A stretch of DNA of 64,000 nt, from assembly GCF_004799665.1 (NCBI RefSeq), contig NZ_CP031310.1, positions 1,976,887 to 2,040,886 of the forward strand, read 5' to 3'. Below, piece after piece: positions 3,217-51,072 of this stretch. The translations under genes were made by a program, and so were the position numbers. A model generated the notes under the pieces. The model saw nothing but the letters and a program-made list of their open reading frames with translations. It ran no database searches and was not told where the DNA came from. The DNA is from Halapricum salinum. Its GTDB lineage: Archaea; Halobacteriota; Halobacteria; Halobacteriales; Haloarculaceae. Numbering within the stretch: the first letter of the stretch is position 1; each line of letters starts with the position of its first letter.

Positions 3217-3297
3217 CTCGCTGGCGGTCGCTGAGCAGGATATTCTCGCTTCGCTCGAATAGAGCCTGCTCAGCGACTCCCTTTCAGCGCCAGCGAG
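3217..3297. repeat. Long interrupted hairpin, copy 1 of a shared-loop pair
   Basis: The outer arms CTCGCTGGCG (3217-3226) and CGCCAGCGAG (3288-3297) pair perfectly. The next arms, GTCGCTGAGCAGG (3227-3239) and CCTGCTCAGCGAC (3265-3277), pair for 13 bp. Ten unpaired bases lie on the right side between the two stems. The loop contains ATATTCTCGCTTCGCTCGAA, which recurs at 3655-3674. Confidence 0.85.
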
Positions 3298-3643
3298 TCT
3301 CTCCCTTTCAATCCACCAGGAACAACAACAACAGCACCGCCACCGCACAGCAGGCCTGCCCTTCCCCGGGTCGCTCAGGCGCGACTCTTGTCGCGCCACT
3401 CGCTCTCGGCCACCGCGGGGCGGTCAGGAAGCGTGTCGCGGCGTCCTGCGGAGCGAAGCGACGCAGGGCTCGCGAGAGCTTGCTCTCGCGGCGCGTCCGC
3501 GCCGCGACCGGGGAGGTGCGGGAGACGTGACCGAAGGGAACGTCTCCGAATGAACGAGCGGGGAGAGCGAGGCGCGAACGAAGTGAGGGCCTCGAATGCG
3601 AACGGCGCAGCCGTGAGCGAAGCGACCCGTGAGCGAGTGGAGT

Positions 3644-3690
3644 CGCTCTGTCGGATATTCTCGCTTCGCTCGAATAGGGCCGACAGAGCG
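3644..3690. repeat. Hairpin, copy 2 of the shared-loop pair
   Basis: The arms CGCTCTGTCGG (3644-3654) and CCGACAGAGCG (3680-3690) form a perfect 11-bp stem around the same loop sequence as the hairpin at 3217-3297. The stem sequence differs from copy 1 but stays fully complementary. Confidence 0.85.
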
Positions 3691-15733: not shown

Positions 15734-15903
15734 GTGTCGACGGCCGGTTCGCGAGCGCTCTCGTGCGCGAGTAGTCCAGCCGGGAGAAGCAGTGTCGACG
15801 GCCGGTTCGTGAGCGCTCTCGTGCGCGAGTAGTCCAGCCGGGAGAAGCAGTGTCGACGGCCGGCACGGCCGCGCGTTGATGCGCGGCCAGCTCAGCCGGG
15901 AGA
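15734..15903. repeat. Three 58-bp tandem units downstream of thiC
   Basis: Units begin at 15734, 15792 and 15850, each with GTGTCGACGGCCGG. The first two are nearly identical. The third keeps both ends (GTCGACGGCCGG ... CAGCCGGGAGA) but its middle is replaced by GGCCGCGC-GTTGAT-GCGCGGCC, a perfect 8-bp hairpin. The first two have TCGCGAGCGCTCTCGTGCGCGA-like imperfect hairpins there (TTCGTGA variant in unit 2). The array lies between thiC and the convergent LiaF-like gene, so it may act as a terminator array or a structured RNA. Confidence 0.85.
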
Positions 15904-15918
15904 CGTGAATTGTCTTCG

Positions 15919-22902: not shown

Positions 22903-22967
22903 TTGAAGCCGACGCGCTGTGACACAAATCACTTGCTATTAAGTACTTCTCTTGTTTATTGAAGGGT

Positions 22968-23392
22968 GTGGAAGACGATGAGTATCTGAGACGTACAGCG
23001 ATTACCCGCCCTACCCTCACTGACAAGCAACAGGAGTTGCTTGACGCGACAATCGGCGAGTGGAAGACTGCCTGCAACATCAGTAGCCGAATCGGATGGG
23101 ACCACGAGGAAACGCGGAAAACCTATCTCCAGGACCTCGCATACGATGACGTGCGCGAGGAGACATATCTCGGGAGTCAGCACGTCATTCTCGCCACCCA
23201 CCAAGCCGCAGCCGCGCTTTCGGGTGTCGATGAAATCGAAGATCTAGACGAACACTACAAAACATCCCGACCAACGTTCACCAGCAACACGGTAAAATAC
23301 GACACGCGGACGATGACGGCTCAGTATCACTGTCCACTGTCGATGGCCGGATTCGATGTGGCCTGAACCTCCCGGACGAAGAAGATGGCTAT
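22968..23392 (+). pseudogene. tnpB: TnpB N-terminal fragment of the outer element
   Basis: This is the first third of an RNA-guided nuclease TnpB, from GTG 22968. It begins with RRTAITRPTLTDKQQELLDA, a typical OrfB N-terminus, followed by SQHVILATHQAAAAL. The frame hits TGA at 23364-23366, but one base back in frame the sequence continues LNLPDEEDGY until 23392, so there is a one-base frameshift besides the insertion. The next codons of the protein (QHAYLEDDDWEMTE) appear only at 25007, beyond the inner element. The fragment cannot make an active enzyme. Confidence 0.85.
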
Positions 23393-23395
23393 CTT

Positions 23396-23538
23396 GATTC
23401 AGCGAGAGAATCCCGCCCTTCCCGTGAGTGACGAGCGTTCCGACGCTTAGTCGGAACCGAGGACCGAACAGGGGCATGGCAAGACCGGAGGTCTTGCTGC
23501 ACCCGAAAATCTTCGATTTTCGAGGACGGGAGTGAATC
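23396..23538 (+). repeat. Left-end hairpin cluster of the inner tnpB element
   Basis: GATTC (23396-23400) with GAATC (23534-23538), and TCCCG (23411-23415) with CGGGA (23527-23531), can pair across the region. Inside are TTCCGAC-GCTTA-GTCGGAA (23438-23456), GCAAGACC-GGA-GGTCTTGC (23479-23497) and CGAAAATC-TTC-GATTTTCG (23504-23522), all perfect. The last two form a tandem pair like those at 33513-33560 and 50789-50837. Confidence 0.85.
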
Positions 23539-23635
23539 GCGTACGCTCCGACACCCAACCGACAGTGTTTCTCCCGGCAGGATATTTCAGCCGACCCGAA
23601 AGAGTAAGTCATTGTGCTGTCATAGGCTATGTATA

Positions 23636-24889
23636 GTGAATCTGGTCACGACACGTACCATTACAGCGGCACTCACCAACGACCGTGAGGGTGTCGTGTG
23701 CGACCTTGATTCGCTCGCTCGTTCCGGCAGTAAAATCTGGAACGTTGCGCGGTGGACTGCTGGCCACATCTGGGACGAAACCGGGGAAATACCCGATGAA
23801 GGACCGCTCAAGTCCTACATGAAGAACCAACCGTGCTGGAAAGATTTGAACGCCCAATCAAGTCAGGCAATCATAGAAGAATTGGCTGGCGCTTTCCAGT
23901 CCTGGTTCGAACAAGACAACTCGGACGCCAACCCACCGGGCTACCGCAAACACGGTGACGAACGGCCACGCTCGACAATCACGTTCAAAGAAGACGGCTT
24001 CAAACTCGATACAAACCACCAGCAGGTCCGACTGTCGAAAGGCAAGAACCTGAAAGACGGGTGGAGCGACTTCGTTCTTTGCGAATACGATACCGGTCCA
24101 GACGCAGACCTGACTGCTGTCGAAGACGTCCAACAGGTCCGCATCGTCTGGAACGGTGAGCAGTGGGAACTGCACTTCGTCTGCAAAGTCGCCATCGACG
24201 CCGCTGACGCGTCTGGCGAGAAGACGGCTGGTGTTGACCTCGGCATCTGTAACACGGCGGCTGTCTCTGTCGGTAACGAGACGCTGTTGTATCCGGGCAA
24301 CGCCCTGAAAGAAGACGCGCACTACTTCCGACAGGAAGAATACGACACGGAAGGTGAAAACGGTCCCAGTACCCACGCTGAGTGGGCACGCCAGAAGAAA
24401 TCACGGCGGCAGACCCACTTCCTGCACGCACTCTCGAAAGACATCGTAGAGCAATGTGCAGACCGTGGCGTGGAGACGATAGCAGTTGGACATCCGAAGG
24501 ACATCCGTGCGAATGCAGACTGGGGGCGGCACGGGAACAAGCGTCTGCACGACTGGGCGTTTGACACCGTACTGAGTCACATCGAGTACAAGGCCGAGGA
24601 ACGTGGTATCGAGGTACAGCGAGTCGATGAGTACGAGTTGGCCACGTCAATAACCTGCTGTGCGTGCGGGATGAAAGCCGAGTCGAGCCGTGTCGAGCGT
24701 GGCTTGTACGTGTGTGAGAGCTGCGAACTGGTCGCTAATAGCGACCTGAATGCGGCGGAGAATATGCGTGCGACGGTAACTCCGAATCCCTCACGGGATA
24801 GGAGTAACGGCTGTCTGGCCCAGCCATCGGTGCGCCTGTTCGACAAATCCACGGGGCGAGTCGCCCCACAAGAACAGGTCTGCCCGTAG
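23636..24889 (+). CDS. tnpB: RNA-guided endonuclease TnpB (complete)
   Basis: TnpB is the nuclease of IS200/IS605-type elements and the ancestor group of Cas12. It cuts DNA matching the guide of an omega RNA made from the element's right end. The sequence has a RuvC-I aspartate in GVDLGICNTAAV, a RuvC-II glutamate in VETIAVGHPKDI, a zinc ribbon (CCAC ... CESC) and a RuvC-III aspartate in ANSDLNAAENM, so all catalytic parts are present. GTG 23636 gives the usual VTTRTITAALTND start; TTG 23612 would add eight residues. It has 417 residues, normal for the family. There is no tnpA beside it. Confidence 0.92.
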   Translation: MNLVTTRTITAALTNDREGVVCDLDSLARSGSKIWNVARWTAGHIWDETGEIPDEGPLKSYMKNQPCWKDLNAQSSQAIIEELAGAFQSWFEQDNSDANPPGYRKHGDERPRSTITFKEDGFKLDTNHQQVRLSKGKNLKDGWSDFVLCEYDTGPDADLTAVEDVQQVRIVWNGEQWELHFVCKVAIDAADASGEKTAGVDLGICNTAAVSVGNETLLYPGNALKEDAHYFRQEEYDTEGENGPSTHAEWARQKKSRRQTHFLHALSKDIVEQCADRGVETIAVGHPKDIRANADWGRHGNKRLHDWAFDTVLSHIEYKAEERGIEVQRVDEYELATSITCCACGMKAESSRVERGLYVCESCELVANSDLNAAENMRATVTPNPSRDRSNGCLAQPSVRLFDKSTGRVAPQEQVCP

Positions 24890-24930
24890 ACCAGCAAATA
24901 TCCCAACGCTTGCGGTGCGGTTCGGGAAGC

Positions 24931-24995
24931 CTCGCCGTCGTCGGGCTACGCCCGACTGCCTGAGGGATCTTCGATCCCTCTCCGTTCACGGCGAG
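24931..24995 (+). repeat. Right-end cruciform, candidate omega RNA part
   Basis: CTCGCCGT (24931-24938) pairs with ACGGCGAG (24988-24995) and encloses two perfect hairpins: GTCGGGC-TAC-GCCCGAC (24940-24956) and GAGGGATC-TTC-GATCCCTC (24962-24980). It lies 42 bp after the tnpB stop, where omega RNA scaffolds of related elements are found. An RNA function here is inferred from position only. The same hairpin pair, with different stems, occurs at 33348-33390. Confidence 0.75.
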
Positions 24996-25006
24996 GAGGA
25001 GGTCAC

Positions 25007-25783
25007 CAGCACGCCTACCTCGAAGACGACGACTGGGAGATGACAGAATCCACGCTCTCGAAGCGTGACGGGGAGTACTATTTGCATCTCGGTTTCAGAA
25101 AGGACAAACCGCCGAAGCAGGTTGCGGTGCAAGATGACGACGAGGACAGGACAGTTCTCGGCGTTGATCTCGGCATCGTCAACATCGCCACCACCAGTAC
25201 AGCGTACTTCGCCTCCGGTAGAGAACTCCGGCACCAGCATCGAGAGTTCGAGCGGATTCGCGGCGAACTTCAGCAGACGGGGACACAGTCGGCCCATCGA
25301 ACTATGCAGCAGATGGGTGGCCGAGAGTCACGGTACGTCCGCGATCAACTGCATCAGGTTGCGAACCAGATTCTCGAAGAAGCACTCGACCATGACTGTG
25401 AGTACATCGCGTTCGAGAATCTGAAACATATCCGAGAGCGCGCGCCGCCCGTCAAAGAGTTCCACCAGTGGGCACACCGTCAACTCGTTGACCTCGTCGA
25501 GTATAAGGCCGAGGCCGAAGGCATCTGTGTGGAGTTTGTGTCACCTCGAAATACGTCGCGGCGGTGCCCTGAGTGCGGGCATACGAGTGAGGGGAACCGT
25601 GTACGGCAGGCCGAGTTCGAGTGTGAATCGTGCGGTGCGACGCAGAACGCGGATTACGTGGGTGCGAAGAATGTCGGATGGCGGTTTGTCCGCCGGGGCC
25701 TACAGTCGTCTCGGCGGACGGGTGACAGTCAACTCGCCCTGAAGTCAGGAACAGTGACGTCCTCAGGTTTCGTAGAAACCTGA
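25007..25783 (+). pseudogene. tnpB: TnpB C-terminal fragment of the outer element
   Basis: This segment continues the protein cut at 23392. It starts QHAYLEDDDWEMTE and contains RuvC-I (VLGVDLGIVNIATTS), RuvC-II (YIAFENLKHIRERA), the zinc ribbon (CPECGHTSE ... CESCG) and RuvC-III (QNADYVGAKNVG). A start at ATG 25040 could still make a 247-residue protein holding all RuvC motifs but no N-terminal RNA- and DNA-binding part. The stop codon is inside the arm of a hairpin at 25763-25783. Confidence 0.85.
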
Positions 25784-25898
25784 TGTGCGAACGAGACGCG
25801 ACGCGTCTCGTCAACGCCGAATCGGGGATTTGTCCCGTCCGACTGAGTGTTGGCAGAGGCCGAGTTCACTGACAAGTCCCGCGCACCCGTGCGCGGGA
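25763..25898 (+). repeat. Right-end hairpins of the outer tnpB element
   Basis: TCAGGTTTC-GTA-GAAACCTGA (25763-25783) overlaps the tnpB stop codon. ACGAGACGCG-A-CGCGTCTCGT (25791-25811) is a near-continuous palindrome. TCCCGCGCAC-CC-GTGCGCGGGA (25877-25898) closes the region. All stems are perfect. Confidence 0.8.
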
Positions 25899-33067: not shown

Positions 33068-33200
33068 CGTCCTCGCTTCGGGTTCTGTCTCCTTGCTCTT
33101 TCTGCCGTCTCTAACCTCTTTGGAATTTGTTCGTAATGGTTGGGTCGAAATTTTGGAGACTGGCGTGTGCAGTCACGACGTCGTGTCGTGACGACTTCAC

Positions 33201-33797
33201 GCGAGGGATGAGTGAGCCGGAGGCGAGCGAATCGGCTGGGGAGGGTGTGGTGCGGTTGGAATGCTGTTGCAGTGTGGTTGCGGGTGGGGCTTTCTGGATC
33301 TGCTGAACTGTACAGGAGGCCCAGAAAGCCCCGACAGACTCGGAGTCGTCGGCGCTACGCGCCGACTGCTTGAGGGACCTCCGGTCCCTCTCTGGCTGCG
33401 ACTCGCTGCGCTCCTCGCCTCGCTACGCTCGGCGGCGGTGTCGTGCGGGCGACCCGTGAGTCGCCCGCACGGCCAGAGGGACCTTCGGTCCCTCCCTGCT
33501 TACGTCGTGGTTCGAGAGAGCGGAGCTCTCTCGTCATCACGAAAGACCTCCGGTCTTTCGGACGATCTCGCTCTCCGAGCAGGGAGGCCGGTTTCACCGG
33601 CCTCCTATAATGTGGCGGCTTCGCCGCCACGCTTGTCACCCCTTTCAGTCCCACCCACAGCAACGGCAGCCACACCCTCCTCACGGGTCGCGATGCTCCC
33701 CGTTCGTCCAGTCGGCGGCGCTCCCATCGGTCGCGCCGCCCGCTCCCCAACCGACTGCGTTGCTCGTCGCTTCGCTCCTGCGCTACTCATCCCTCGC
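33201..33797. repeat. Hairpin-rich dispersed element, copy B
   Basis: The ends are inverted: GCGAGGGATGAGT (33201-33213) and ACTCATCCCTCGC (33785-33797). Inside are GGGGCTTTCTGG/CCAGAAAGCCCC with a 23-nt loop (33286-33332) and seven perfect hairpins with 3-nt loops or one 6-nt loop: 33348-33366, 33372-33390, 33442-33471, 33476-33494, 33513-33533, 33540-33560 and 33583-33605, plus 33612-33630. The tract CCCTTTCAGTCCCACCCACA begins at 33640. No protein-coding gene is convincing. A related copy lies at 50497-50945. Confidence 0.85.
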
Positions 33798-33941
33798 GCA
33801 ATTCCGGCTCGCGACGGCACGCGAGCCAGCGCGCGCCGGGTTGACTGGTACTGAGCACAAGTACAATACAGAGTGCCCGGGCGGGCACTAGAGACCTCTC
33901 GGAAAGAGCGGCGACAACGGAACAAAGGGGATAGACAACTC

Positions 33942-50396: not shown

Positions 50397-50496
50397 CTAC
50401 GTTTCGTGTTGTGGGTCTGGGCGGCTATGGGTTGTGATTTCGTATGGAGGGATTGTGGCGTGTGCGGTCGCGAGTCTCGTCTCGCGGCGACTTCAC

Positions 50497-50945
50497 GCGA
50501 GGGACGAACGAGGGAGCATCGCGACCGAGTGAGTCGGCTGGGGAGGGCGTGGCGCGGTTGCGGTCCAGTGGGGTGGACTGAAAGGGACCGGACTCTCGAC
50601 GAACCCCGGCGACGTAAGCACTGGAGCGAGCGAAGCGAGTGAAGCGCGCAGCGAGTCGCGGGAGGCGAGAGTCCGGGGGCTTTCTGGACCTGCTGGACTG
50701 CGGAGCACAGCCAGAAAGCCCCGGCCGGCTCGAAGGCTGCGGCTCGCTGCGGTCCTCGCCTTGGGGCTGCGGTCCTTACGTCGTGGTCCGAGAGAGCAAG
50801 GCTCTCTCGTCATCACGAAAGGCGCTTGCGCCTTTCGAACGACCTCGCTCTACGAGCCGGCCGCCCCTTTCAGTCCCACCCACAGCAGGCCACGTCCTCC
50901 CCAGCCGATTCCTTCGCTCGCAGCGCTCGCTCAGTCATCCCTCGC
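50497..50945. repeat. Hairpin-rich dispersed element, copy C
   Basis: The ends GCGAGGGACGA (50497) and TCATCCCTCGC (50935-50945) are inverted with one mismatch. The next blocks, TCGGCTGGGGAGG (50534-50546) and CCTCCCCAGCCGA (50896-50908), are perfectly inverted. Inside are CCGGACTCTCG/CGAGAGTCCGG (50588-50676), GGGGCTTTCTGG/CCAGAAAGCCCC with a 23-nt loop (50676-50722), CGAGAGAGC-AAG-GCTCTCTCG (50789-50809) and CGAAAGGCGC-TT-GCGCCTTTCG (50816-50837). Order and sequence match copy B at 33201-33797. No gene is seen from 50397 to 51072. Confidence 0.85.
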
Positions 50946-51072
50946 GCGCTGCTGGCTCACCACGACCGGTTCGCCAGCACGCGCCGGATGATTAGTCTGT
51001 TCGTATTGCAGGCCAATCCGTCGCGCTTTTGGCCGCGCACACGTTGAGAAGAAACAACAGAGACGTTCCAGC

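Follow-up and report, generated by a model that had tools for sequence, protein, structure and literature searches.

A two-hairpin repeat at the tips of existing hairpins in haloarchaeal DNA, probably a non-autonomous mobile element

The 64,000-nucleotide stretch of the Halapricum salinum genome analysed here (the window) holds two copies of a short repeat, each made of two perfect hairpins joined by the linker TCATCA, at 33513-33560 and 50789-50837. The double hairpins and their identical linker had been pointed out in a first-pass annotation, and that description is correct to the base. In copy A, hairpin 1 (33513..33533) has a 9-bp stem and the loop GGA, CGAGAGAGC-GGA-GCTCTCTCG, and is followed by the invariant linker (33534..33539) and by hairpin 2 (33540..33560), CGAAAGACC-TCC-GGTCTTTCG, with a 9-bp stem and the loop TCC, all on the forward strand. 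The parts of copy B are hairpin 1 at 50789-50809, TCATCA at 50810-50815 and hairpin 2 at 50816-50837, and the two copies have 91% identity over 47 common nt. The repeat, here called unit I, is wider than first reported, since conservation extends to a 5-nt tip at each end, TGGTY and NACGA. Copy A, with its boundaries taken from a comparison of 95 copies, spans 33508..33565 (58 bp, TGGTT-hairpin-TCATCA-hairpin-GACGA) and copy B spans 50784..50842 (59 bp), both on the forward strand; the general form is G^[TGGTYCG-hairpin-TCATCA-hairpin-NACGA]^C, with a length of 53-66 bp. Single-strand folding of copies A and B against shuffles gave z = -4.3 and -4.8, and these values, together with hundreds of matches to a covariance model of unit I, rule out chance hairpins. 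In its own genome copy A matches the model with 66.4 bits. No curated Rfam family matched in the window or in the loci L060, L072 or L078.

Both copies are situated inside large branched palindromic repeats, copy A in one at 33161..33837, with the terminal arms TGGCGTGTGC / GCGCGCGCC and nested inner arms, and copy B in one at 50456..50985 (neither assigned to a strand). These host repeats are intergenic, with about 25 related loci in the 3.45-Mb genome. Their structure is that of large nested palindromes; examples of the arms are GAGGGATGA, CGGCTGGGGAGGGTGTGG, GGGTGGGACTGAAAGGGGC and GGGGCTTTCTGG, and several of the repeats are bounded by the terminal arms GGCGCGCGCTGGC/GCCAGCGCGCGCC. Loci L039 and L042 contain the same repeat without interruption, reading CTTGCGTCG^CCTCGCTCT where A and B read CTTACGTCG[unit]YCTCGCTCT, which makes unit I an insertion into the palindrome. 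For copy B, L042 offers a homologous empty site (87% over 91 nt).

Many of the large palindromes (33161-33837, 50456-50985 and about 23 more loci) measure 300-800 bp; they have terminal arms, and a target duplication is not evident. They are mosaic in their inner hairpins, and their motifs flank 23 of 96 unit I copies, several of these in other genera. Palindrome A has at 33348-33390 a two-hairpin module, GTCGGCGC-TAC-GCGCCGAC TGCTT GAGGGACC-TCC-GGTCCCTC, which agrees in layout and linker with the right end of the tnpB element in the window (24940-24980) and differs from it in the stems. Another two-hairpin module, CGTGCGGGCGACCCGTGAGTCGCCCGCACG GCCA GAGGGACC-TTC-GGTCCCTC, lies at 33442-33494 and recurs in L036, L037, L041 and L042, its stems differing between copies. 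A third level of nesting was observed in L066 (1501-1600) and L062 (1501-1570), where a hairpin module, TGCTCACGGCGC-TTT-GCGCCGTTCGCAGGTTCG..., is placed inside the TCATC linker of unit I. Elsewhere in the window, a 49-nt repeat at 3227-3275 and 3642-3690 (82% identity), in which the outer stems differ and the inner CGGATATTCTCGCTTCGCTCGAATAG is kept, is perhaps another hairpin module, and a 58-bp repeat occurs as three tandem copies, 98% and 71% identical, at 15734-15907.

The window also contains a tnpB-only element of the IS200/IS605 type at 23389..25006 (forward strand). Its limits are approximate, and were taken from a left-end stretch that recurs in L062 and from a right end that aligns to L060. 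The tnpB gene of the element (23612..24889, forward strand) encodes 425 aa with OrfB_IS605 and Cas12f1-like_TNB domains. The element sits inside another tnpB gene (22959-25783), whose N-terminal remnant (22959-23366) and C-terminal part (25040-25783) are found one on each side of it. At the right end there is an empty target hairpin, GTCGTCGGG^CTACGCCCGAC (24937..24956, forward strand, junction 24945/24946). In L060, which holds a relative of this element with 93% protein identity, unit I fills the hairpin, giving GTCGTCGGG[unit]CTACGCCCGAC as compared to GTCGTCGGGCTACGCCCGAC in the window. A link of the repeat to tnpB had been proposed, and many tnpB elements, the one in L060 included, do carry unit I in their right-end palindrome. 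In genomes of the same genus it is found 3' of tnpB genes, within the right-end hairpin and antisense to tnpB. When the context of 96 copies was compared, 35 were at right-end-type sites, 21 of them with a tnpB at a distance of at most 700 nt and antisense to it in every case (21/21); 23 were near large-palindrome motifs, 9 near tnpB at sites that are not of the right-end type, and 29 elsewhere. As many as 52 of the 96 copies had neither a tnpB within 700 nt nor right-end flanks.

The left end of the window element (23479-23522) had been regarded as a third site of the same unit. Two hairpins are indeed present there, at 23479-23497 and 23504-23522 (fold z -5.1), but the linker is TGCACC, the ends are unlike those of unit I, and the unit I covariance model did not report the site in this genome at an E of 0.1. 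The hairpins of this tnpB end fall in a separate cluster from the repeat hairpins, and the GGACG that was thought to follow both is a superficial likeness. The site belongs to a different two-hairpin module, unit II (23474..23526, reverse strand), which is missing from L060. Unit II, surveyed across loci by sequence pattern only, receives unit I in its linker in L152, L174 and L177, and the window copy is the empty counterpart of L174 (98.9% over 87 nt). A second unit II-like two-hairpin module (25760..25816, forward strand) is located at the 3' end of the interrupted tnpB. Such a module was also observed directly at a tnpB 3' end in L052 (from 368), and the same site is empty in L078 and L082.

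The edges of unit I are constant in 95 copies, G^TGGTY...NACGA^C. The unit starts with T and ends with A, and it has imperfect terminal inverted repeats, TSGTTCGARAG as read off the aligned copies. Away from tnpB right ends, at 54 distinct sites, position -1 is G in 51 and position +1 is C in 52. No target duplication was seen in the comparisons of filled and empty sites. Clean empty counterparts with joined flanks were found for 61 of the 95 copies among the DNA compared, and the weaker of these may be paralogous hosts. The best pairs, L152/L209, L177/L218, L106/L107 and L174/window, are 97.8-100% identical over 87-90 nt. The pairs show a seamless gain or loss of unit I, and as they are comparisons between species, some of the empty sites may be losses. 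The commonest host site, the tnpB right-end hairpin CCTCGGGGTCAAG^CCCCGAGG, is empty in 48 of 76 genomes, and a control search of the 76 genomes with the reversed pattern of the empty hairpin found none.

The joined flanks fold into hairpins in which the junction coincides with the stem-loop boundary, for instance CGTCAGAG^CTTG-CTCTGACG (L129), TGCGGGAG^CTTTC-CTCCCGCA (L120), CCGCGG^CTTCG-CCGCGG (L118) and GGCTGTG-TGG^CACAGCC (L109). The junction is enclosed by a stem of 6 bp or more at 8 of the 54 sites outside right ends as compared to 2.9% of the background (p 1.5e-4), for which GC sites were drawn at random from the loci concerned, and CG^CNNCG was present at 24 of the 54 as compared to 5% (p 3e-17). 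A permutation in which flanks were shuffled among copies is weak, because the CG...CG frame is common to all sites. About 23 of the 54 sites have neither a strong hairpin nor CG^CNNCG. The target of unit I is the stem-loop boundary of existing hairpins, in tnpB right-end palindromes, in large intergenic palindromes and in the linkers of other two-hairpin modules. The flanks have no conserved 4-5 nt target; the studied members of IS200/IS605 have one.

The stems of unit I vary while the order of the hairpins is fixed, as was proposed from the window. There are 54 hairpin-1 and 65 hairpin-2 sequences among 88 distinct units, and the linker is exactly TCATCA in 71 of the 88. A test for covariation had been suggested as well, and at the most variable positions of the stems in the 88 units it is pronounced, these being 98-100% paired as compared to 45-74% with shuffled partners. 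A separate pair count gave 97.4% of cells paired and a covariation score of 0.201, against 0.088 when shuffled (0/500). The loops come as reverse-complement pairs, GAA/TTC and GGA/TCC, and both members are common. Template switching during replication creates and repairs hairpins, inverts loops and is described as giving rise to compensatory change (PMC8794818). The compensated stems and flipped loops of unit I probably arose at least partly by such copying between the arms, and not only by selection on an RNA. If template switching contributes in this way, the covariation of unit I alone is no proof of an RNA function.

The covariance model, built from 18 copies, matches 66 of the 76 genomes of the family. 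In the class it matches 109 of 116 genomes, which represent 43 of 45 genera. Copies with different stems do form one family. In a phylum-wide sample, 18 of the 19 genomes that belong to the class contain unit I, and none of the 101 from the rest of the phylum does. Twenty-one plasmid records match; the listed organisms are all haloarchaea, and none of the listed plasmid matches is annotated as unit I. Phage records gave no match, and when contigs were scanned with a pattern of 20 nt, the only matches were three bacterial loci, all unrelated.

Taken together, unit I is probably a non-autonomous mobile repeat that inserts at hairpin tips and moves by way of single-stranded or extruded DNA, likely through TnpA acting in trans. 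Hairpin DNA in single-stranded or extruded form would be either the moving unit or its target, and the enzyme acting on the hairpins of the unit is most likely the Y1 TnpA of IS200/IS605 elements. The insertion would turn the target hairpin into a three-way junction, and in this way it is likely to remodel the palindrome used by TnpA and by the TnpB guide RNA. The mechanism most favoured, though unproven, is single-strand transposition driven by TnpA, because the copy number tracks Y1 TnpA genes better than DDE transposases. Among the three enzyme families compared, the number of unit I matches per genome, a count in which some places are also represented by their reverse-strand match, was correlated with Y1 TnpA (rho 0.55, p 3e-7) and TnpB (rho 0.51), and not significantly with DDE_Tnp_1 (rho 0.20, p 0.085). 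The partial correlation with Y1 was 0.30 given TnpB (p 0.008) and 0.51 given DDE. The correlation with Y1 is weak evidence and only gives a lead, since the genomes are related and unit I also has host sites in the tnpB right ends. A Y1 gene was not detected in 19 of the 66 unit-bearing genomes, that of H. salinum included, and in genome G050, with 12 matches to the unit I model, neither Y1 nor TnpB was detected. For the Y1-free genomes with the unit, either past activity or another enzyme would have to be assumed.

The repeat may also be mobile by means of an enzyme other than Y1 TnpA, an unknown recombinase or an RNA-guided transposase of the IS110 type working on hairpin DNA, and to this we assign an appreciable chance, though one well short of even. 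It would explain the copies in Y1-free genomes and the lack of a conserved target tetranucleotide of the TnpA type, and the terminal inverted repeats and symmetric layout of unit I are unlike the ends of IS200/IS605. The mobilisation of comparable repeats was likewise found enigmatic in 2011 (PMC3119063). On the other hand, it is the number of Y1 genes, not that of DDE transposases, that the copy number follows, and both the missing target duplication and the use of hairpins fit Y1 chemistry. That no mobile element is involved at all, and that template switching during replication makes the hairpin pairs at palindrome tips, is extremely improbable. The stems and loops do carry the footprint of this process, which is able to create or repair hairpins and invert loops (PMC8794818), but identical 5-nt tips and the linker TCATCA recur in dozens of genera at sites unrelated to each other, and it cannot bring this about. 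The edges of the unit are fixed throughout 109 of 116 genomes, and template switching may act on the stems but does not place the unit.

The remaining two explanations derive unit I from tnpB elements. If unit I were a structured domain that selection on the TnpB guide RNA (omegaRNA) maintains, and the other copies were decayed tnpB right ends, this would account for the strong covariation, for the predicted three-way junction in the right end, and for the single orientation of the right-end copies (21/21 antisense to tnpB), downstream of the gene where the omegaRNA is encoded. We regard this as unlikely, because the unit is not constant in tnpB right ends (empty ones occur in 48 of 76 genomes), its exact edges are identical in palindromes without tnpB (52 of 96 copies), and it is present in G050, which has no TnpB match. 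Most flanks of copies outside tnpB elements show no further omegaRNA sequence beyond the edges, and loops that flip to their reverse complement would not be favoured in an RNA read from one strand. As the sole explanation an RNA domain is rejected by the empty right ends, the tnpB-free copies and the flipped loops. The first-pass annotation had suggested another reading, that the repeats are tnpB-free, PATE-like derivatives whose two hairpins represent the left and right end modules. PATEs and 52-bp derivatives with only the termini are known in haloarchaea (PMC3119063), and L062 seems to fuse a left end of the type of the window tnpB element directly to a unit-bearing right end. The site at 23479-23522 is a different module, however, and the reading as a derivative carrying both ends therefore fails; tnpB ends occur with and without the unit, and G050 has the unit with no tnpB or Y1 tnpA detected. 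Many otherwise intact right ends lack unit I, which lies inside the right end and not at both ends (at the left end it is found inside unit II), and its edges differ from the edges of the elements. Copies A and B are in unrelated large palindromes, and the filled and empty pairs contradict a derivation of this kind, so that we consider it very unlikely.

The nearest known kind to the mobile repeat proposed here is SMR-A of Haloquadratum walsbyi (HqIRS42, HqIRS43 and HqIRS55), compared here by its published description. These repeats are about 110 bp long, more than 95% alike within a type and described from one species; they are free of a transposase, present in many copies, have terminal inverted repeats and cause no target duplication, their mobilisation was called enigmatic, and they prefer the near-terminal palindromes of IS605-type elements and PATEs (PMC3119063). 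Unit I is similarly transposase-free and multi-copy, with terminal inverted repeats, although imperfect ones, and without target duplication, and it too enters near-terminal palindromes of IS605-type elements. In contrast to SMR-A, it is only half as long (53-66 bp instead of about 110 bp) and has two covarying hairpins around a fixed TCATCA centre, and its stems are far more variable, with 88 distinct units and an identity that does not reach the >95% seen within SMR-A types. It is also class-wide, and its sites include large intergenic palindromes and two-hairpin modules of other kinds. Because the behaviour is alike while the length is half, the stems are variable and the distribution covers the class, we judge unit I to be a variant of the SMR-A kind. 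A tentative idea, which we hold to be rather unlikely, is that unit I represents a dedicated way of transposition not described before. A two-hairpin DNA would be inserted without a scar at the stem-loop boundary of an extruded or single-stranded hairpin, reading the shape of the target (G^C at a hairpin tip) and not its sequence, and palindromes of haloarchaeal genomes would grow by nested insertion of hairpins into hairpins.

PATEs resemble unit I in being short, palindrome-bearing and tied to IS605-type elements, with no target duplication. They are, however, fused outer ends of IS605 elements and have no terminal inverted repeats, whereas the ends of unit I are imperfectly inverted, and unit I is located inside IS605-type right ends that persist without it, and also exists apart from them. 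The right end of IS200/IS605 elements, with the TnpB omegaRNA, is the most frequent host, and unit I joins its hairpin; unlike a constant part of the right end, the unit is facultative there and has its own edges elsewhere. With bacterial REPs, unit I has in common that it consists of small paired hairpins, in many copies and inside palindromes. Some REPs lie within palindromes and the CGTC-tagged ones are without a known transposase, according to a survey of REP and REPIN sequences that covers bacterial phyla only (PMC3733652). REPs have a GTAG or CGTC tag and are commonly inverted dimers, whereas the hairpins of unit I stand in tandem, joined by TCATCA; the bases after hairpin 1, CG-TC, are CGTC-like, and no GTAG tag was seen in the 88 distinct units. 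REP and REPIN sequences have an associated RAYT (Y1) gene, while the association of unit I with Y1 is only statistical and its own genome shows no Y1. The TnpA of archaea is found only in the IS200-type subclass 1.1 (PMC6006769).

The attack of SMR-A on IS605 palindromes, a curiosity of one species in 2011, now looks class-wide. The compensation of stems together with the inversion of loops in these DNA repeats calls for caution when covariation alone is taken as proof of a functional RNA. With a defined unit, its edges, a target rule and pairs of filled and empty sites, the mobilising activity is now testable. It also appears that such inserts remodel both transposon ends encoding guide RNAs and large intergenic palindromes, whose hairpins they would turn into three-way junctions.
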